52,614 bases of DNA from the NCBI GenBank assembly GCA_001784805.1, contig MFSE01000007.1:1-52614 (forward strand). The letters run 5' to 3'. The notes below the pieces were generated by a model, which saw only the letters and a program-made list of their open reading frames with translations, did no database searches and was not told the DNA's origin. The stretch is from Candidatus Moranbacteria bacterium RIFOXYA12_FULL_35_19 (GTDB lineage Bacteria > Patescibacteriota > Minisyncoccia > Moranbacterales > UBA2206). A program made the position numbers and the translations under genes. Each line of letters starts with the position of its first letter. Within the stretch, counting starts at the first letter, position 1. Positions 1 through 12,397 of this stretch are shown here, one piece after another.

Positions 1-210
1 CTTTCCAGCTCTCCATCCGGTTGTACGGGAGGCAGTCCTGTTTTGACCCAATCTTGCACTACTAACGATGCTACGCTGTGTACTTCTTTTAAATATTCAA
101 AGTGGAGCGCTTGCATTGACAATATCAGAACCAGAACAGTACTTTCCAGCTCTCCATCCGGTTGTACTGGAGGCAGTCCTGTTTTGACCCAATCTTGCAA
201 AAAAAAGTAG
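1..210 (+). CDS. C-terminal end of a Cys-rich repeat surface protein (5' truncated)
   Basis: Frame 1 is open from the window edge to a TAG at 208-210, giving 69 residues. Two copies of an LSSSPSGCTGG..PVLTQSC block lie 141 bp (47 residues) apart, with a KWSAC...RTRTV stretch between them. The W-S-x-C, R-T-R and TQSC spacing resembles the thrombospondin-type-1-like repeats common in CPR surface proteins. The near-identical DNA of the two copies indicates recent tandem duplication. The rest of the gene, including any signal peptide, lies outside the window. A repeat-bearing exported protein is a fairly safe call; binding target unknown. Confidence 0.7.
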   Translation, partial: LSSSPSGCTGGSPVLTQSCTTNDATLCTSFKYSKWSACIDNIRTRTVLSSSPSGCTGGSPVLTQSCKKK

Positions 211-2836: not shown

Positions 2837-4204
2837 ATGGCTAATTTACTAGAAAAAATATATTCTTCAAACCCTTGGTTTGAAAACGAACAGTTAATTG
2901 AAGAGGATTTGCATATTAGAGACTTGGCTGACAGTCAACATATTTTTCTCAATCGCGAATTTTTGGAGCATAAATTTGCAGATGGCGTATATATTGTGAC
3001 GGGACCCAGACAAATCGGAAAAACCACCCATCTCAAGCTTTTAATTCAGCAAAAAATAAATATTGCCAGTAAGACGGATTTTCTATATTTCAACTGTGAT
3101 CTTTTGGAGACAAAAGAGGATGTGGTTGATTTGGTTGAGACTTATCTCAAAAATTTTCCTTCTAAAAAACGAAGCTTCATTATGCTGGATGAAATCACTG
3201 CAGTTAAAGATAGCATTTTGGGAATAAAATATTTGATTGATAAAGGTATCAAAAAAAATATTACCTATATCCTCACTGGCTCAAGCACGATTGAAATCAA
3301 AAAAACCGGAGAATATCTTCCGGGGCGAAGAGGCAACGGTGTTGATTTTCATTTTACTCCTGTCAGTTTTAGGGATTTTGTGAAGATTCAATATGATAAA
3401 ATTAATTTTGATTTGGGTGTCAAGGAGAGTCTGGAAAAATATTATGCTAGAATAAAAAACAAAGTGCCGTTGGCCAAAGAATTGAACAATTATTTTTTCT
3501 GCGGAGGCATCCCGAAAATTATTAATGAATACCTGGCGAAAAAATCTATTGGTTTGGAAAATCTCAATCTCTATCGCGATTGGATTGTGTCTGAAATTGC
3601 TAAAAATGGGAAAAGAGAAAATATTAGCAAGCAAATACTTGCTCGAATCTTGAATTCTGTGACCAGTGATGTTTCCTACAATTCATTTGCTCAAGATTCT
3701 GGCATCGGTTCGCACAACACTGTTTATGAATATCTTAATTTTTTGGAAGATGCATTTATTGTCTCGCAAATTTATAATTATGATTATGATCAGAAAAAAA
3801 TTAATTTTCGTAAAAACAAAAAAATATATTTAAACGATCCATTTTTGTTTTCTTTGCTTGAATGGTGGTTGAATGGAAAAATTCCTAGCACCAAGTTGAT
3901 GTTTGAAGATTCAATTCTGAAAAGTCGAATTGCAGAAAATTTGACCTTTCTGCATCTCAAAAAAATATTTAGCGAAGTTTATTTCCATAGAAACAATGAA
4001 GAAATAGATTTTATTTGTGGCAAATCAGCTTTTGAATCAAAATTTCAAAACAAAATTGCCAGCGATGATTTCAAAGGATTGTCAGAATTTACCGGATCTA
4101 AATTTATCATAACAAAAAACACTTTTGATGTTCGCAAGGAAATTAAATTTTTGCCATTGGAATTGTTTTTGTTGGTTGAGGGGAAATATTTCAAGATAAA
4201 ATAA
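2837..4204 (+). CDS. AAA_14/DUF4143 family ATPase
   Basis: 455 residues. Walker A is GPRQIGKTT (56-64), Walker B FIMLDE near 115-120, and a sensor-like ILTGSS follows. The C-terminal DUF4143 half contains a winged-helix-like stretch and a PD-(D/E)XK-like motif, EEIDFICGKSAFESKF (about 391-406), with acidic residues and ESK in the expected spacing. Family function is poorly known. It has its own promoter, and its stop is 4 nt before the exported protein at 4209, so the two are surely co-transcribed and probably coupled. The same ATPase-cargo pairing recurs at 5636/6837. Confidence 0.8.
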   Translation: MANLLEKIYSSNPWFENEQLIEEDLHIRDLADSQHIFLNREFLEHKFADGVYIVTGPRQIGKTTHLKLLIQQKINIASKTDFLYFNCDLLETKEDVVDLVETYLKNFPSKKRSFIMLDEITAVKDSILGIKYLIDKGIKKNITYILTGSSTIEIKKTGEYLPGRRGNGVDFHFTPVSFRDFVKIQYDKINFDLGVKESLEKYYARIKNKVPLAKELNNYFFCGGIPKIINEYLAKKSIGLENLNLYRDWIVSEIAKNGKRENISKQILARILNSVTSDVSYNSFAQDSGIGSHNTVYEYLNFLEDAFIVSQIYNYDYDQKKINFRKNKKIYLNDPFLFSLLEWWLNGKIPSTKLMFEDSILKSRIAENLTFLHLKKIFSEVYFHRNNEEIDFICGKSAFESKFQNKIASDDFKGLSEFTGSKFIITKNTFDVRKEIKFLPLELFLLVEGKYFKIK

Positions 4205-4208
4205 TTCT

Positions 4209-5552
4209 ATGAAAAACAAAAGAAATAAAATATTAATAAAAGTATTTTTTGTAGCAATACTGTTTTTATTTTTTGGAATTTTTGGTTTTACGAAAACCTC
4301 TCTTGCCGTGCCGAGCGTGTCTGGTATTTCTGGCACTATTTCCCACGGTAATTCAATTACAATTAGCGGTAGCGATTTTGGAGTTAAGAATCCGGCAAAA
4401 CCTCTTATGTGGGATGACGGAGAAGATGCAGTTGTGGATACTTTCCCAAGTGCAAGCCCGAATGAATATTCTCAAGTCGGTTATTCTGATTATAATCCTA
4501 TTGCTTCGCGAGATGGTGATGTTATTCCAGAATCTTGGCAAATAAAATATAGAAGTGTCACATTTACACCAACCGGAGCAACCGAAATACTTGACGCCAT
4601 TTCTCCATCACATAGCCACTCCACTAAATATATTGTTGGCGGTCACTATATGTGCACAGAAAATTGCGATGGACAATATGACGGAGGAAATAATGGCGGG
4701 CGTGATGTTGGTCTGACAATACCAGCAAATGGCCCGGTAGGAACTTTTGAACCAAGATGGTACTCTCATTGGAAATACAGACTCCATCCGGCTATGCCAG
4801 CGTGTACTGGGACTGACGATAATCATAAATGGAACATAATTCAAAGCGCACAAGAGGCATATGGTGGAGGATTGTTTCCAAATGATTTTGTATATGGTTG
4901 CAATGAAGATCTTAGCGGATCTCCGTGTACACGATCTGAAACCTTGAGTTTATTAACATACGAACTACCAGGCGATGTAATGCCAAGAGAGGCTCCGCTC
5001 GCAGATTGTACAGAGGGAGAAGGGGAAGGACTTAATGTAAATGTAGAAAATCCAGTTTTAGAGTGGATCACGATTGAAGATGTTATTGTAAATGATGATA
5101 CTGATTTATCTCAAAGAACCACAAAAGTTAATCAAAAAAATGCATGGAGCTGTCACAATTCGCCTCTCTGGTTTACTAATGGGGTGGGTCAAGGTATTGG
5201 GAGCTACACACTTGGTGGGTTTTACAGATATGATATGTTCCCAATAAATGCACAGCATTCCGATATCTACAGATATTTTGATGATGTTTATGTGGACTCA
5301 ACTCTTTCAAGAGTAGTTCTTGCCAATAACGCAACATATGAAGATGCAACAGTTGTTGAACCACAAATTCCATCGGTATGGGCAGGCGATGAAATTACGA
5401 TTGCAGTTAATCAAGGTGCTTTGCCAGACGGAACAGCCTATCTTTTTACTTTTGATGCGGACGGTAATATATCAAGTGGATATCCCGTGACTCTTGGTGA
5501 AACCTCTGATACCACCCCGCCCTCCGCGCCGAGTGGACTTAGTGTGAGTTAG
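4209..5552 (+). CDS. Exported TIG/IPT-like protein with shared C-terminal tail (paralogue)
   Basis: 447 residues, paralogous to the gene at 1413. It has a nearly identical signal peptide and TIG start (SGISGTISHGNSITISGSDF), a diverged middle with several cysteines, and a conserved end: RYFDDVYVDSTLSRVVL, VNQGALPDGTAYLFTFDADG, tail SDTTPPSAPSGLSVS. The conserved ends with a variable centre suggest exchange of the binding or catalytic part. It begins 4 nt after the ATPase at 2837. The junction DNA (taaaataattctatgaaaaa) is also found at 6829-6848. Confidence 0.65.
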   Translation: MKNKRNKILIKVFFVAILFLFFGIFGFTKTSLAVPSVSGISGTISHGNSITISGSDFGVKNPAKPLMWDDGEDAVVDTFPSASPNEYSQVGYSDYNPIASRDGDVIPESWQIKYRSVTFTPTGATEILDAISPSHSHSTKYIVGGHYMCTENCDGQYDGGNNGGRDVGLTIPANGPVGTFEPRWYSHWKYRLHPAMPACTGTDDNHKWNIIQSAQEAYGGGLFPNDFVYGCNEDLSGSPCTRSETLSLLTYELPGDVMPREAPLADCTEGEGEGLNVNVENPVLEWITIEDVIVNDDTDLSQRTTKVNQKNAWSCHNSPLWFTNGVGQGIGSYTLGGFYRYDMFPINAQHSDIYRYFDDVYVDSTLSRVVLANNATYEDATVVEPQIPSVWAGDEITIAVNQGALPDGTAYLFTFDADGNISSGYPVTLGETSDTTPPSAPSGLSVS

Positions 5553-5635: not shown

Positions 5636-6832
5636 ATGCTTTATTCAAGGGAAATATTGAAAAAAATAGAAAAAGTGCTCTTTAGAGACGAGTTTATCAT
5701 TCTAAGCGGAGCGCGCCAGACAGGCAAGACCTCGATTCTTTTGATTTTGAAAAATCTTTTGGAAGAAAAGGAGTATACTTGCCATTATTTCAATCTAGAA
5801 AACCCAGAACATTTGAAATTTTTCAACGATCATCCTTTCAATTTATTGGAAGTTATTCCCCCTAAAAAAACCAAGCAATATATTTTTATCGATGAAATAC
5901 AATATCTCGATGACCCCAGCAATTTTCTCAAGCTTCTTTATGACGAAAAAAGAGCAGAGATAAAAATAATCGTATCCGGTTCTTCGTCTTTCTATATTGA
6001 CAAGAAATTCAAGGACAGCCTGGCCGGTAGAAAATTTCTTTTTGAAATATATCCTTTGAATTTTGAGGAGTTTTTAGTTTTTAAAAAAGAAGAAAAACTA
6101 TTGGAAGAAAAAAATAAAAAACTCACCATATATTATCAAGAAAAATTAGCTAAATTGTGGAAAGAATACCTGACCTTTGGCGGTTACCCAAAAGTGGCGC
6201 TGGCGGAAAATGACGAAATGAGAAAAATATTATTAGAAGAGATTGGAACATCCTATATTAAAAAAGACATTGCTGACGCTGGTATTCGCAATAGTGAAAA
6301 ATATTTTTCTCTTTTGAAACTTCTAGCTGGTCAAACCGGGCAACTGGTCAATTCGCAGGAATTGGCGACGACACTCGGGGTTGCACATAAAACTATCGAA
6401 GAATATTTGTATGTTATGAAAAAGTCCTATCAAATTGCCTTTATCGCGCCTTTTCACAAAAATATGCGTAAGGAGCTAGTGAAGATGCCCAAAGCCTATT
6501 TCTATGATTTGGGACTGCGTAATTTTTTTCTGGACGATTATTATTTTTTGGAAAATCGCGCGGATAAGGGCGCGTATTTGGAAAATATTGTTTTTCGAGA
6601 ATTTCTCAAAGAAACAAAAGATGCCAGTAAGATAAAATTTTGGCGCACTCAAAATCAAAAAGAAGTGGATTTTGTAATCGGCAAAAAGGCGTATGAGATA
6701 AAATTCAATTTGGCAAAGCAGAAAGACAAAAAATATGTTATATTCAAAGAACAATATCCTGATATCGCATTTTCTTTCCTTTGTGAAAATGATTTGCTTG
6801 AAAAGTTTTATGGATTTGAAAAATTAAAATAA
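5636..6832 (+). CDS. AAA_14/DUF4143 family ATPase
   Basis: 398 residues. Walker A is GARQTGKTS (25-33), Walker B YIFIDEIQ (about 83-90), and SGSSSF acts as a sensor-like element. The C-terminal DUF4143 part ends with KEVDFVIGKKAYEIKF, the PD-(D/E)XK-like D...ExK pattern seen also in the gene at 2837. The two ATPases are only distantly similar, so this is not a recent duplication, although both occupy the same position 4 nt upstream of a tail-bearing exported protein. Roles proposed for this family include defence or toxin-antitoxin-like functions; none is demonstrable here. Confidence 0.8.
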   Translation: MLYSREILKKIEKVLFRDEFIILSGARQTGKTSILLILKNLLEEKEYTCHYFNLENPEHLKFFNDHPFNLLEVIPPKKTKQYIFIDEIQYLDDPSNFLKLLYDEKRAEIKIIVSGSSSFYIDKKFKDSLAGRKFLFEIYPLNFEEFLVFKKEEKLLEEKNKKLTIYYQEKLAKLWKEYLTFGGYPKVALAENDEMRKILLEEIGTSYIKKDIADAGIRNSEKYFSLLKLLAGQTGQLVNSQELATTLGVAHKTIEEYLYVMKKSYQIAFIAPFHKNMRKELVKMPKAYFYDLGLRNFFLDDYYFLENRADKGAYLENIVFREFLKETKDASKIKFWRTQNQKEVDFVIGKKAYEIKFNLAKQKDKKYVIFKEQYPDIAFSFLCENDLLEKFYGFEKLK

Positions 6833-6836
6833 TTCT

Positions 6837-8237
6837 ATGAAAAACAAAAGAAACAAAATATTAATAAAAATGTTTTTTCTGGCAATATTATTTTTCGGTT
6901 TTGTTGAAATTTCTGAAGCCAAAGATCTATTTGTTTCTACTACAGGAAATGACGCAGTGACTTATGCCAACAATGACATAAATAATCCGTGGCTTACCGT
7001 TGAAAAGGCGTGGGCAGACGCACAGACAAATGATGTGGTGTATTATCGTGCTGGGACATACACTATAACCGCTCAAATTAATAATTTGACCAGTGGAGCA
7101 AGTGTCACACACACGAATTATCAAGATGAGGTGGTGACATGGGAAAGCTCTTTGTGCGACGGTGCAGAATCTGATCATGGAGTTATTCATGTAAGCGAGG
7201 ATAATATTACAGTTGATGGTATCAATGGAAACTGGACAGGGAGCGAGGACTGCTTTGCGGATACTGGTTTTTTTGTTATGGGGTGGTCGGCAAAAGCGGT
7301 ATCGGCAGACTACTTCACTCTTAAAGATGGTGACTGGACATCTGCTAAATATGGTCAGAACGGCGGGATTGTTTTTGCAGCACTCCGAGGCACGGATCAC
7401 TCTACTCATGTAATGATTGAAAATGTAAATATTATAGGTGCTGGAGCAGAAGTCGGTTCAATTAATACTTCTGGAATCATGACATTTCAAGCAGAAGATT
7501 GGACTATAAAAAATTGTGAGATTTCAAATGTTAATACAGGTATTTTTTTTAACAAACATCCAAGTATAGCATCAGCAGTGGGCGGGACAATCGAAAATAA
7601 TTATATTCACACCGTTCATTCAGCCCTTAGAACTCAAACAAACAATACGGAATTTACAAATAATATTTTTAATGGTTCTGTTTCGATGGGATACGACAGC
7701 GGCCCATGTTCGATTGATGGCAATGTAGGATCAGACAATAACACATGGACACATAATACTTTTACGGGTTATGTTGAGTTATCTTCAGCTACACGAGATG
7801 GGGATAATGAGTTGGTTGGGACTGTCTATCCGGTTTTTGAAAATAATATTATGCCAGCAGTAAATGTTGATATTCACAGATATTCTGTCGCCCCCACATA
7901 CTATGAAGGCGATTATAATCTATGGCCACCAGCTGGAACAATATATGTTTATGAAGGGGGGTCATCCGCAAAAATACTTACCACATTTAGAACTTTTTTA
8001 GGTGGATGTCCTAATGATGACAATGAATGCAATTCTCTTGAGCAAGTTCCAATATTTGCAGGCGGTGCAAGTCTGGATGAAATAGCTGATTTTGCGCTTA
8101 CAGCGGAAAGCCCTGGATACCAAGCGTGTGCGGACAGCAGTGACATGGGAGCTGATATTTCTCTTGTCGGAATAGACGCCGGCGAAGAGTCCGACACCAC
8201 CCCACCTTCTGCTCCAAGCGGACTCAGTGTGAGTTAA
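6837..8237 (+). CDS. Exported right-handed beta-helix protein with shared C-terminal tail
   Basis: 466 residues with a signal peptide ending EISEA. It then has the typical start of DUF1565/pectate-lyase-like beta-helix proteins (LFVSTTGNDA...NNPWLTVEKAW..AQTNDVVYYRAGTY). Repeated short strands with N-rich turns follow (DNITVDGINGNWTG, IENVNIIGAG, WTIKNCEISNVNTG, IENNYIHTVHSAL, FTNNIFNGS). Such folds usually bind or cut polysaccharides. The end is SDTTPPSAPSGLSVS, as in three unrelated neighbours. It starts 4 nt after the ATPase at 5636. The signal peptide DNA is almost the same as that at 4209. Confidence 0.75.
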   Translation: MKNKRNKILIKMFFLAILFFGFVEISEAKDLFVSTTGNDAVTYANNDINNPWLTVEKAWADAQTNDVVYYRAGTYTITAQINNLTSGASVTHTNYQDEVVTWESSLCDGAESDHGVIHVSEDNITVDGINGNWTGSEDCFADTGFFVMGWSAKAVSADYFTLKDGDWTSAKYGQNGGIVFAALRGTDHSTHVMIENVNIIGAGAEVGSINTSGIMTFQAEDWTIKNCEISNVNTGIFFNKHPSIASAVGGTIENNYIHTVHSALRTQTNNTEFTNNIFNGSVSMGYDSGPCSIDGNVGSDNNTWTHNTFTGYVELSSATRDGDNELVGTVYPVFENNIMPAVNVDIHRYSVAPTYYEGDYNLWPPAGTIYVYEGGSSAKILTTFRTFLGGCPNDDNECNSLEQVPIFAGGASLDEIADFALTAESPGYQACADSSDMGADISLVGIDAGEESDTTPPSAPSGLSVS

Positions 8238-8240
8238 AAG

Positions 8241-8286
8241 TTATCCACAGGGTTGTATTTTAAAATTTTGAAAAATATAGTATAAT
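8241..8286 (+). promoter_or_regulatory. DnaA-box-like site and -10 element before FN3/cohesin operon
   Basis: TTATCCACA (8241-8249), a perfect DnaA-box match, starts 4 nt after the stop of the cargo gene. A TATAAT lies at 8281-8286, 18 nt before the ATG at 8304. The -35 is weak (TTTTAA at 8258-8263 with 17-bp spacing). The same nonamer opens the spacers at 27373 and 31490. Confidence 0.45.
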
Positions 8287-8303
8287 TAACTCAAATTAAG
8301 AAA

Positions 8304-8690
8304 ATGAATTCTAGGAAAAAAATAATACTTTTGATAGTTTTAATTTTAGGAATAGCGGGAGTTTTTTGGTTTTTTAATACAGAGAAAAAAAAGACATTAG
8401 GCTCGGCTGTTCTTTCTTGGAATGCTAATTCCGAAACTGATTTGGCTGGATATAAAATATATTATGGAAAAAAGCCACGAACCGATGATTGTCCCAAAGG
8501 GGGATACGAAAAAGTTGTTGATGTAGGGAAAAAAGTAAATTATACAGTAAATAATTTAGAGTTGGGGCAAACTTATTATTTTTCCGTGACATCGTATAAT
8601 TCTGCCAAAAAAGAAAGTTGTTTTTCGGGGGAAACTAAAAAAGAAATCAAATTATCCATTATGGATAAATTAAAAAATTTTTTAAAGTAA
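8304..8690 (+). CDS. Membrane-anchored single FN3 domain lacking strand A
   Basis: 128 residues. An N-terminal transmembrane anchor (about 6-24) is followed at once by an FN3 domain that begins with strand B: SAVLSWNANSETDLAGYKIYYG, then YTVNNLELGQTYYFSVTSYN. The usual PPSAPxGLSVS strand A is absent, and exactly that segment ends the four cargo proteins upstream. The C-terminus is a short basic amphipathic stretch. It is the first gene of an operon with the FN3-dockerin (1 nt gap) and cohesin genes. A role as membrane acceptor for cargo tails is inference; some unrelated FN3 proteins also begin at strand B. Confidence 0.7.
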   Translation: MNSRKKIILLIVLILGIAGVFWFFNTEKKKTLGSAVLSWNANSETDLAGYKIYYGKKPRTDDCPKGGYEKVVDVGKKVNYTVNNLELGQTYYFSVTSYNSAKKESCFSGETKKEIKLSIMDKLKNFLK

Positions 8691-8691
8691 C

Positions 8692-9318
8692 ATGAAAAAA
8701 CAAAAATTATTTTTATTAGTCATTTTTTCTTTCGGACTTTTTTTTGCCCTAATTTTTGCCGAAAAAACTTTAGCCGCGGGTTCGGCCACTGTTTCTTGGA
8801 CGGCTCCAACAACTAACGCAGATAATTCAACTCCTGTGGATCTAGCCGGGTATACTGTTTATTATGGTACCTCGGCAATTGATTGTACTGCTTGGGATGC
8901 TGCATCTGATCAAGCCACTAGACAAGCAATTACACTAGCAGCAAATCATGTGGATGTGACTGAAGATGATACGCTTAGAGATACAGCTGATGAAACAAAA
9001 AGAGGATACACTTTTAGTACTACAAGTCTTTTGACTCCTGGAGAGACATATTATTTTACAGTAATTGCTTATGACAGCACGGGCAATGTAAGTGAATGTG
9101 TTAATGATAGCGGTAGCAATAAAACTGCTAGTAAACTCGTTTACCATAGTGGAAATCTAAAGGATAGTGGAACAGTTGGTCTATCTGATCTAAGTATCTT
9201 AGCTGAAAATTTTGGATCCACAATATGCAGAATTGCTGGAAATCCAAGTGATATTGATGGTGATTGTGATGTTGATGTATCTGATTTGAGCATTTTTTCC
9301 GGAGAGTGGGGACTTTAA
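8692..9318 (+). CDS. Exported FN3-dockerin protein
   Basis: 208 residues. A signal peptide (ending LAAG) is followed by an FN3 domain that starts at strand B (SATVSWTAP...DLAGYTVYYG) and ends TPGETYYFTVIAYDSTGNVSEC. Residues about 152-208 form a type I dockerin: two calcium-loop/helix repeats, GNLKDSGTVGLSDLSILAEN and PSDIDGDCDVDVSDLSIFSG, each with D/N-x-D-like loop positions and the LSDLSI helix. The first loop is less acidic than usual. Dockerins bind cohesins, and the next gene encodes a cohesin. It therefore looks like an adaptor between cargo (through FN3) and scaffold (through dockerin). Confidence 0.8.
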   Translation: MKKQKLFLLVIFSFGLFFALIFAEKTLAAGSATVSWTAPTTNADNSTPVDLAGYTVYYGTSAIDCTAWDAASDQATRQAITLAANHVDVTEDDTLRDTADETKRGYTFSTTSLLTPGETYYFTVIAYDSTGNVSECVNDSGSNKTASKLVYHSGNLKDSGTVGLSDLSILAENFGSTICRIAGNPSDIDGDCDVDVSDLSIFSGEWGL

Positions 9319-9322
9319 ATAA

Positions 9323-12300
9323 ATGAAATTTAGTAAAAATAAAAATATGTTGCATTTACTAAAAAAGGAAATAAATTTTAAAAAAATAATAACAATTATT
9401 TTTATTGCAGTTTTATATTTTGGGTTTTTTGTTCCTAAATCCAAGGCAGTGGGAATAGTTGATGCCACCCTTCTTTTTAACCCAGCGTCCACTTCGGTGT
9501 CTGCAGGAAGTGATTTTAATTTAGTAGCGCGCGTTGATCCAGGATCAAACACAGTAGATGGGGATGGTGTAAATGCTGTGCAATTAGATATCACTTTTGA
9601 TCCAGATGTATTGCAATTAAATAGCATGGTCGCTGCTGGCACATTTACAAGATTAGCTACTCCAACAATTGATAATCTTTTAGGAACAGCTTCGGCGGCA
9701 TTTTTTATTGCGGGTGATGATGTGATTACAGTTTCAGATGTAGCTACATTATCTTTTCATGCACAAGCAAGTGCAACTGATTCGCCAGTCGCCTTTGCCA
9801 CTAGTGCAAATGCTGCAGTTAGCGACGGACTTGGCACACAAGTCGTAGCCACTAGGACTCCCGCGACAGTGACAGTCACAGGGGTTTCATATACAGTTGG
9901 CGGAACAGCCAGTGGACTAAACGGCACAGCAGTTTTACAAAACAATGGTGGAAATGATCTGAATGTTACAGCTAATACAACTTTTACTTTTACTAACGGC
10001 TTAGCTGATGGTGCAACTTATGCCGTCACTATTCTAACTCAACCTACCGGACAAACTTGTGTGCTGTCTGATGAATCAGGCACGATCTCCGCTGCCAATG
10101 TGGATAATGTTGGTTTGACTTGTACGACAAATACTTACACCGTCACCTTCGACGGCAATACTTCTGATGGCGGATCAACTGCTACTCAAACTCTAGACTA
10201 CAACACTCCAACTGCTCTAACTGCTAATGGCTACACTAAAACAGGCTACACATTCGATGGTTGGAATACTCTAGCAAATGGCACTGGCACAGACTATGCT
10301 GATGAAGCAGAATATACAATTGGAACTGCCAATGTAACTTTGTATGCTCAATGGGTAGTGAATACTTACACTGTCACCTTCGACGGCAATACTTCTGATG
10401 GCGGATCAACTGCTACTCAAACTCTAGACTACAACACTCCAACTGCTCTAACTGCCAATGGCTACACAAAAACTGGATATACTTTTGATAGCTGGAATAC
10501 CGAAGCTGGCGGAGGAGGAACAGAATATGCTGATGAAGCAGATTACACCATTGGAACTGCCAATGTAACTTTGTATGCTCAATGGACAGTTATTACTTAC
10601 GCTGTCACCTACAACGGCAACAGTAACACTGGTGGAACTGCCCCAGCTGATCAAACTAAAACATATGCTGTTGATTTAACTTTGCAAACAAACTCTGGCA
10701 CATTAGTTAGAACGGGGTATACTTTCGATGGCTGGAACACTCAAGCTGATGGTGGAGGCACAGATTATGCTGTGGGAGCTACCTACACCACTAACGCTAC
10801 TTTAGCTTTGTATGCTAAATGGACAATTAATACTTACACCGTTACCTTCGACGGCAATACTTCTGATGGCGGATCAACCGCTACTCAAACTCTAGACTAC
10901 AACACTCCAACTGCTCTAACTGCCAATGGTTACACAAAAACTGGATATACTTTCGATAGCTGGAATACCGAAGCTGGCGGAGGAGGAACAGAATATGCTG
11001 ATGAAGCAGAATATACAATTGGAACTGCCAATGTAACTTTGTATGCTCAATGGACAGTTATTACTTACACCGTTGGCGGAACAGCTACGGGGCTTAACGG
11101 TACTGCAGTTTTACAAAACAATGGCGGAGATGACTTGAATGTTACAGGAGAAAGTTTTACCTTTGCTACGGGACTAGCTAACGGTGCAACTTACGCTGTC
11201 ACTATCGAAACTCAACCAACTGGACAAACTTGTACATTGTCTAATGACACTGGCACAATTAATTTGGCGAATGTGACTAATGTTGGGTTAACTTGTACAG
11301 AGAATAGCTATACCGTCGGTGGAACAATTACTGGACTAGATGATACTGTAACTTTGCAAAACAACGCCGGAGATGATTTGGATGTTTCAGTTGATGGAGC
11401 CTTTACTTTTGTTACTTCTATTGAGCACGGAGATACTTATGCAGTCACTGTTCTAACTCAACCTACGGGACAAACTTGTAGCGTATCAGATGGTTCAGGA
11501 ACTATGGGCGGGGCGAATGTGACTGATGTTGAAGTGACTTGTGCTGACATCACTTATACTATTGGCGGAACAGCTAGCGGATTAAACGGCACCGCAGTTT
11601 TACAAAACAATGCTGGCGATGACTTGAATGTTACAGAAGACGGATCATTCACATTTGCTACGGGACTAGCTGATGGCGCAACTTACGCCGTCACTATCGA
11701 AACTCAACCAACCGGACAAACTTGTACTCTATCTGATGAATCAGGCACAATTTCTGCGGCCAATGTGACGGATGTTGAATTAAATTGTACAGACACAGCT
11801 GGTCCGACTCGCTCGGCTGGTTCTCCAAGTGGTAGTTTTTCTTCGAAGACAAAAAGCAAAGCAATTTCACTTACTACTAATGAAGATGCTACTTGCAAAT
11901 ATTCAACTACGAGTGGAACTGAATATGATTCAATGACGGAAACTTTCACGACTACGGGAGAAACTTCTCACTCAACAACAGTTACAGGACTAAGCAGTAA
12001 TCACACCTATCGATACTATGTGCGTTGTCAAGGTGAATCATCTAATGTTAATTCAACTGATTATGCAATATCTTTTTCAGTCAAGAAAAAATCTTCTAGT
12101 GATGAGAAGGAGCCGGAAAAAAGAAAACTATCAACTAACAAAAAAGTACTTCAACGGGGAGAAGTCATTATCGAATCTGGTAAGAGATTTTCCAAAAATG
12201 ATTATGTGCAACTTTATTTCCAGACAAGATATGGAGGTGCTTTTTATCCACCAGTAACAGTAAAAACTTCAGACAAAGGAACTTTTTCAATAAGCTATAA

Positions 12301-12397
12301 AATACCGTGGTATAAATCGCCAGGAATTTATAAATGGTATGCAGTTGATCTAAAAACCGGAAGAACTAGCAAACAAGGTAGGTATATAGTACAGTAG
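9323..12397 (+). CDS. Cohesin-bearing scaffold protein with InlB-type and Ig-like repeats
   Basis: 1024 residues, 4 nt after the dockerin gene. A signal peptide (1-42) is followed by a cohesin-like domain (about 43-185) with ATLLFNPAS..VSAGSDFNLVARVD, GVNAVQLDITFDPDVLQL and a closing VATLSFHA strand. Then come one YTVGGTASGLNGTAVLQNN module (190-270), four about 77-residue Listeria-Bacteroides (InlB B) repeats (272-581; GYTFDGWNT...YTIGTANVTLYAQW) and three more YTVGG modules (582 to about 820). An FN3/chitobiase-like domain (about 825-930) and a C-terminal Ig-like domain (about 935-1024) finish the protein. No LPXTG or C-terminal membrane helix is seen, so the anchoring mode is unknown. Likely the backbone on which the dockerin protein docks. 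Confidence 0.8.
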   Translation: MKFSKNKNMLHLLKKEINFKKIITIIFIAVLYFGFFVPKSKAVGIVDATLLFNPASTSVSAGSDFNLVARVDPGSNTVDGDGVNAVQLDITFDPDVLQLNSMVAAGTFTRLATPTIDNLLGTASAAFFIAGDDVITVSDVATLSFHAQASATDSPVAFATSANAAVSDGLGTQVVATRTPATVTVTGVSYTVGGTASGLNGTAVLQNNGGNDLNVTANTTFTFTNGLADGATYAVTILTQPTGQTCVLSDESGTISAANVDNVGLTCTTNTYTVTFDGNTSDGGSTATQTLDYNTPTALTANGYTKTGYTFDGWNTLANGTGTDYADEAEYTIGTANVTLYAQWVVNTYTVTFDGNTSDGGSTATQTLDYNTPTALTANGYTKTGYTFDSWNTEAGGGGTEYADEADYTIGTANVTLYAQWTVITYAVTYNGNSNTGGTAPADQTKTYAVDLTLQTNSGTLVRTGYTFDGWNTQADGGGTDYAVGATYTTNATLALYAKWTINTYTVTFDGNTSDGGSTATQTLDYNTPTALTANGYTKTGYTFDSWNTEAGGGGTEYADEAEYTIGTANVTLYAQWTVITYTVGGTATGLNGTAVLQNNGGDDLNVTGESFTFATGLANGATYAVTIETQPTGQTCTLSNDTGTINLANVTNVGLTCTENSYTVGGTITGLDDTVTLQNNAGDDLDVSVDGAFTFVTSIEHGDTYAVTVLTQPTGQTCSVSDGSGTMGGANVTDVEVTCADITYTIGGTASGLNGTAVLQNNAGDDLNVTEDGSFTFATGLADGATYAVTIETQPTGQTCTLSDESGTISAANVTDVELNCTDTAGPTRSAGSPSGSFSSKTKSKAISLTTNEDATCKYSTTSGTEYDSMTETFTTTGETSHSTTVTGLSSNHTYRYYVRCQGESSNVNSTDYAISFSVKKKSSSDEKEPEKRKLSTNKKVLQRGEVIIESGKRFSKNDYVQLYFQTRYGGAFYPPVTVKTSDKGTFSISYKIPWYKSPGIYKWYAVDLKTGRTSKQGRYIVQ
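10136..11065 (+). repeat. Four tandem 231-237-bp coding repeats (InlB-type)
   Basis: Units start at 10136, 10367, 10598 and 10835. Units 1, 2 and 4 are nearly identical at DNA level (for example gtcaccttcgacggcaatac), while unit 3 is clearly diverged. This points to recent homogenisation or slippage and possible length variation. Confidence 0.85.

Follow-up and report, generated by a model that had tools for sequence, protein, structure and literature searches.

In cellulosomes the enzymes carry dockerins and the scaffold carries several cohesins, and the scaffolding can be layered through anchoring and adaptor scaffoldins. Non-cellulosomal cohesin-dockerin pairs are also described, in which a scaffold with a single cohesin stands beside a single dockerin protein. 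In the donor-strand complementation of chaperone-usher and type V pili, an Ig-like sandwich that is short of one strand is completed in trans by a strand from a partner, and in the LPXTG, PEP-CTERM and type IX secretion system C-terminal domain (T9SS CTD) systems one C-terminal signal is placed on many unrelated exported proteins. Here we describe a locus with likenesses to all of these in Candidatus Moranbacteria bacterium RIFOXYA12_FULL_35_19, a genome of ~0.99 Mb. The stretch of DNA that we analyzed, referred to as the window, comprises the 52,614 nt of contig MFSE01000007.1 on the forward strand, and coordinates without a locus name are positions in it. Genes for exported cargo proteins with a common C-terminal tail are followed in the window by three plus-strand genes with gaps of 1 and 4 nt that encode a membrane-anchored FN3 receptor (8304–8690), a secreted adaptor with FN3 and dockerin domains (8692–9318) and a secreted cohesin scaffold (9323–12397). 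We propose that these genes encode a split-FN3 system for surface display, in which cargo docks by complementation of strand A in trans, and we assign this reading a probability of roughly 60%.

In the proposed mechanism, exported cargos of many unrelated kinds would carry a free C-terminal strand-A tail, and the receptors would be FN3 domains starting at strand B that are borne on a membrane anchor (8304) or placed behind a signal peptide on the adaptor (8692). Once a cargo has been exported, its tail would insert as strand A and complete the receptor sandwich, so that any receptor could take up any tailed cargo. The dockerin of the adaptor would then bind the cohesin of the scaffold (9323), thereby holding the cargo away from the membrane. 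Such an assembly would presumably be located at the cell surface and may serve polymer handling or attachment. A chain running from cargo tail through FN3-dockerin to cohesin scaffold had been suggested in a preliminary description of this DNA, and it stands as the best reading of the locus, with cargo interchange attributed to the tail and the strand-A-less FN3 domain and with the cohesin-dockerin contact a putative one.

The locus shares with donor-strand systems an acceptor Ig-like domain without one strand and, on the partner, a peptide whose sequence is that of the absent strand. It differs from them in that the fold is FN3, the missing strand is the N-terminal strand A and the donor forms the C-terminal end of numerous unrelated cargos. 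Furthermore, no chaperone, usher or pilin family was present among the ten window proteins that we scanned with Pfam. Unlike LPXTG and PEP-CTERM signals, the tail has no hydrophobic helix or basic end, and its proposed partner is an FN3 domain rather than a transpeptidase. Studies of FN3 folding place the folding of strands A and G last (PMC4330816). A strand-swapped FN3 domain (Tencon, PDB 4m6a) is among the PDB matches of our receptor model; going by its title, the N-terminal strand is donated between chains, as proposed here, in what is an engineered homodimer and not a natural cargo-receptor pair. In the literature searched, which lay mostly outside subscription journals, we found no description of FN3 strand-A cargo tags or of Patescibacteria or Parcubacteria dockerins in such a role, and neither group is named in a survey of cellulosome diversity (PMC11557425).

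The preliminary description had correctly placed four exported cargo genes next to this operon; they lie upstream of the receptor genes and are broken up by two AAA_14/DUF4143 genes. All four open reading frames (ORFs) are on the plus strand, and their products end in the same fifteen residues, SDTTPPSAPSGLSVS, with a stop codon immediately after. Cargo 1 (371–1348), identified by its ORF, signal peptide and tail, has the tail at 1301–1345. Cargo 2 (1413–2741, tail at 2694–2738) has a body homologous to that of cargo 3 (4209–5552, tail at 5505–5549), and cargo 4 (6837–8237, tail at 8190–8234) is beta-helix-like with a weak NosD match. A fifth tailed cargo of the same genome, located on contig C23 (L027:9035–9907), ends in SDTTAPSAPSGLSVS, giving an own-genome consensus of SDTT(P/A)PSAPSGLSVS followed by the stop codon at the exact C-terminus of five cargos. 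When the fifteen tail codons are compared over all pairs of these five genes there are 76 synonymous versus 4 non-synonymous differences, which indicates that the protein sequence of the tail is under selection and that the tail is not merely a recently copied DNA repeat.

Over all genomes we obtained 84 distinct tails, the bodies of which sort into 19 similarity groups. The tail motif is D-x-x-[PA]-P-x-x-P-x-G-L-x-V-x, and it is ended by a stop codon in 84 of 84 cases. Conserved positions are D-14 (77/84), which was absent from the pattern used in the search, together with P-10, P-7, G-5, L-4 and V-2, while the final residue is free. Judged by sequence, the tail is an ordinary FN3 linker plus strand A. 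A crude test detected a signal-peptide-like start in 70 of 78 tailed ORFs versus 92 of 210 neighbouring ORFs. Most tailed bodies are without annotation, and those recognized by Pfam in other genomes belong to Beta_helix, Polysacc_lyase, CBM_4_9, PL14 and TIG/Ig. The four window cargos gave only sub-threshold matches (Laminin_G_2 and TIG), and the earlier view of their bodies as carbohydrate-active or lectin-like is correspondingly weak, though it fares better for their counterparts in other genomes. The tail pattern was not found in viral contigs. A tail created by interruption of an FN3 gene through a frameshift or stop codon was considered and rejected, as inspection by eye revealed no evident strand-B sequence downstream of cargos 1 to 3.

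The membrane-anchored receptor consists of an N-terminal membrane helix and an FN3 domain at 8400–8645 that scores 31 bits with Pfam fn3 (cut-off 25), and the FN3 domain of the adaptor (~8776–9135) scores 24.9–26 bits and is thus at the cut-off. Both align to the fn3 profile only from position 13–15, the membrane receptor from 14–15. Strand B reads GSAVLSW in the membrane receptor and GSATVSW in the adaptor, where it directly follows the signal peptide. Receptors across genomes likewise match the profile from position 10–16 only; for FN3 domains within large proteins of the same genomes the match mostly starts at position 2–6. Both types occur together in one protein of locus L064, in which a strand-A-less FN3 domain is followed by an intact one with APSVPANLLAV as its strand A, a sequence that shows the motif of the tail. 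The AlphaFold model of the membrane receptor has strands B to G and no A, with a predicted local distance difference test (pLDDT) of 92–98 over the FN3 domain, and it aligns with FN3 domains in the PDB from strand B on with Z-scores of up to 10.8. A cysteine pair (CPxGGY...ESCFS) is conserved in most receptors of tailed genomes, with G020 as an exception, and is absent from tail-less relatives; it might stabilize the empty receptor. Among the fetched loci there was no intact gene for a receptor-type FN3 that retains its own strand A, and therefore there is no fusion evidence for the tail-receptor joint.

We searched for tails with a DNA pattern coding for P-x-x-P-x-G-[LF]-x-V-x-stop. A homologue of the adaptor is present in 8 of 94 related genomes, and the tail pattern occurs in all eight of these at 2 to 27 copies each, the maximum being in G063. 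In the 86 genomes that have no adaptor homologue the pattern was found in two, once each and thus at a background-like level, with one of the two ending in TGG rather than a stop codon. The association of tail with adaptor homologue has a Fisher value of 4e-10, and a reversed control pattern gave 7 matches over all 94 genomes. Among 380 genomes of the phylum, at least three tail matches were observed only in the genome of the window and in G441, and new tail genomes in the order were G535, G533 and G532. A receptor profile search of these held-out genomes returned 129 bits in G441, 131 bits in G535, 123 bits in G533 and 133 bits in G532, as compared with a maximum of 61 bits among 85 further genomes, where the 61-bit match is an FN3 domain that possesses its own strand A. 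The receptors in the held-out genomes start at strand B behind a membrane helix or a signal peptide. Tails thus predicted receptors in genomes that had otherwise not been looked at, and the coupling of tail and receptor is well supported. One further genome, G548, has a single weak tail and no receptor.

Relatives that possess homologous loci carry the names Paceibacterota and Moranbacteria/Moraniibacteriota, which bears out the candidate phyla radiation setting given in the preliminary description. The Elusimicrobia genome G097 (RIFOXYA2_FULL_50_26; L064 and contigs C34, C37, C39, C87 and C100) likewise contains a receptor FN3 domain and seven tails that match the pattern, and the system thus extends beyond Patescibacteria. 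On balance we lean slightly towards regarding it as a natural split-FN3 display, with dozens of unrelated tagged proteins per genome and a sporadic occurrence in Patescibacteria and at least one Elusimicrobia genome, and as an undescribed class of sorting and docking system.

Several observations weigh against docking by strand insertion. We modelled a single-chain read-through in which the cargo-4 tail continues into the membrane FN3 domain through two TAA codons in the same frame (8166–8687). AlphaFold left the tail undocked with a pLDDT of 53–58 and no strand, in a construct poorly suited to the question, as artificial and membrane helices separated the tail from the FN3 domain and the alignment contained no homologues of the tail. 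Fusing a real tail to a receptor adds 0 to 3 bits to the fn3 score, hardly above a reversed tail; only real tails stretch the fn3 match to profile position 1–2, in 3 of 4 cases, and the tail-receptor fusion from the window aligns from position 1 onward. FN3 domains with strand B as their first strand, directly behind the signal peptide, are common in secreted proteins of other bacteria, among them Deltaproteobacteria, Nitrospirae, KSB1 and others (L066 to L138), and the genomes of those Deltaproteobacteria, Nitrospirae and KSB1 proteins contain no tails above background. Because tail-less bacteria have such domains, a missing strand A by itself requires no partner, and a strand-A-less FN3 domain can be stable alone. 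The tailed genomes are moreover related to each other, so the Fisher values overstate independence and serve as a rough guide only. Finally, the Portnoybacteria genome G095 (L236) groups receptors with four cohesins and two dockerins in a single cluster, but its assembly of 0.7 Mb contains no strict tail; its tail may be a different one, or contigs may be missing.

Some of these points would also suit a tail that is an address which the FN3 receptors, or some other factor that is co-inherited, recognize in a way other than as an inserted strand A, for instance through contact with an edge strand or a loop, or as a signal for secretion or processing. The co-occurrence of tails and receptors holds whatever the chemistry, the tail stayed uninserted in the AlphaFold model, the receptor FN3 domain is predicted to be stable without strand A, and similar domains exist elsewhere without tails. 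We nevertheless consider an address of this kind rather doubtful, since the tail matches exactly the strand that the receptor lacks, and its fixed residues P-7, L-4 and V-2 are the buried positions of strand A with the last residue free, a profile that favors a buried strand over an enzyme motif. The absence of a membrane helix or basic end after the motif also sets it apart from LPXTG and PEP-CTERM. Another idea is that the tail serves for covalent sorting, as in the substrates of sortase or exosortase, with the FN3 genes merely co-inherited. Such a signal would look like the short motif that is conserved at the C-terminus of many exported proteins of one genome, but here a stop codon ends the motif with no hydrophobic stretch, and the held-out prediction leads to an FN3 receptor gene, in an analysis that included no genome-wide search aimed at transpeptidases. 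We regard a covalent signal as very improbable.

The locus could also be read as a small non-cellulosomal cohesin-dockerin scaffold in which FN3 is a spacer and the tails are relics of lost FN3 domains. The cohesin and the dockerin are indeed real, and FN3 often serves as a spacer in secreted enzymes. However, relics would not be expected to keep their protein identity while codons change, nor to form the very C-terminus of as many as 27 proteins of a single genome (G063). Cargos moreover carry no dockerin, and tails and receptors exist in genomes that have no dockerin match (G081, G085, G096, G097 and G533). Relic tails are therefore an improbable explanation, and docking by strand-A complementation is the preferred one.

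The dockerin and cohesin genes named in the preliminary description are genuine and adjacent, and the order of FN3-dockerin and cohesin genes is repeated in related genomes. In the adaptor, two F-hand-like repeats follow the FN3 domain (dockerin at 9142–9315), in agreement with the two-repeat dockerin assigned earlier. Both repeats are below the cut-off of Pfam Dockerin_1 (22.9 bits), which homologous adaptors exceed with 26.4 bits (L022) and 23.4 bits (L023). A family profile, built with the repeat of the window included, matches cellulosomal dockerins in the PDB (2y3n_B with an E-value of 1.5e-8, 4fl4, 1clc and 1daq). The second calcium loop, DIDGDCDVDVSD, keeps the usual acidic residues and the first, NLKDSGTVGLSD, is mostly stripped of them. 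The scaffold, which has a signal peptide, contains a cohesin (residues ~56–184, ~9461–9880) that narrowly passes the Pfam Cohesin cut-off with 25.5 bits (cut-off 24.1). A profile check thus upheld the cohesin in the window itself and the dockerin only by way of its homologues. Behind the cohesin, InlB/List_Bact and other repeats extend over ~9884–11793, including four List_Bact/InlB repeats that match Pfam Flg_new with 144.6 bits, so the earlier assignment of this gene as a cohesin with an InlB repeat rod also stands. The cohesin family profile finds cohesins of R. flavefaciens and others in the PDB, and cohesins lead the Foldseek list obtained with the AlphaFold model of a cohesin homologue (E-value 1e-8). 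Both domains fold well in an AlphaFold model of the dockerin-cohesin read-through of L023 (predicted TM-score 0.54), a model without an interface readout.

Profile searches of the source genome returned one cohesin and one dockerin, the latter on the adaptor, and none of 62 cargos has a match to the Pfam Dockerin family. Cellulases, plant-cell-wall glycoside hydrolases and CBM3 were not found among the cargos, some homologues of which show lyase-, beta-helix- and CBM_4_9-like matches. The locus is not a cellulosome, as two features that define one, several cohesins on the scaffold and dockerins on the enzymes, are both lacking, and the term cellulosome-like that had been applied to it is not supported in its usual sense. 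A scaffoldin with a cohesin, as in cellulosomes, is present. The cohesin-dockerin pair is probably a new non-cellulosomal member with a degenerate first calcium loop. It resembles other such pairs in that one cohesin scaffold accompanies one dockerin protein and in that no cellulases were found, and differs from them in that the dockerin is located on an adaptor rather than on cargo, with cargo exchange proposed to occur via the FN3 tail.

In G081, one of the genomes in which tails and receptors occur and the dockerin profile finds no match, an FN3 receptor is fused straight to the C-terminal domain that is borne by the cohesin scaffold of the window, as if the dockerin-cohesin joint had been replaced by a covalent one. 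In G085 the end of the adaptor is formed by another kind of duplicated repeat, which looks dockerin-like by eye. At the other extreme, G069 (L019:8630–13301) has a membrane FN3 protein, a membrane cohesin, an FN3-dockerin protein, a cohesin-dockerin scaffold and a scaffold with cohesin and C-terminal domain in one cluster, a layered scaffolding like that of cellulosomes. The genomes with no dockerin match, the G081 fusion and the layered G069 cluster together suggest that dockerin and cohesin form a joint inserted between receptor and rod as an optional extension. The C-terminal domain of the scaffold (~12083–12394) has no Pfam match; it recurs at the end of other cohesin scaffolds and of the G081 receptor and is a candidate envelope-anchoring domain. 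The G069 cluster is adjoined by parA/parB-like genes, and the same FN3 pair lies beside parB in G532.

Patescibacteria have small gene sets and rely on contacts that their surface makes with other cells. To our knowledge, how they attach proteins to their surface is poorly known. If our proposal is correct, a one-strand tag with a split-FN3 receptor would be a simple, modular means of surface attachment, and there is a real chance that this tag and receptor represent a new kind of sorting system. Unannotated secreted proteins would become findable by their last 14 residues, and the cohesin-dockerin interaction would serve as a joint between receptor and rod instead of one between enzyme and scaffold. 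The tail and receptor would also provide a natural tag-and-catcher pair for protein engineering. The hypothesis can be tested in vitro with one peptide and one small domain.

The left end of the window holds the 3' end of a further membrane-anchored FN3 receptor gene (1–210, plus strand), the remainder of which is presumably at the end of contig C23 (L027:10677–11226). The end of C23 and the start of the window share the identical sequence CTTTCCAGCTCTCCAT, which lies within a 58-nt direct repeat, and the reading frame of the split gene is open through to a TAG at 208–210. The window therefore appears to continue C23; a 58-nt direct repeat would interrupt assembly. The split gene has a C-terminal repeat, LSSSPSGCTGGSPVLTQSC. 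The AAA_14/DUF4143 ATPase genes that lie between cargo genes on the plus strand, at 2837–4204 (Pfam 88.7 and 50.1 bits) and 5636–6832 (102 and 122 bits), are probably outside the display system. A gene of this AAA_14/DUF4143 type also adjoins the adaptor in G085 (L024:1204–2424).

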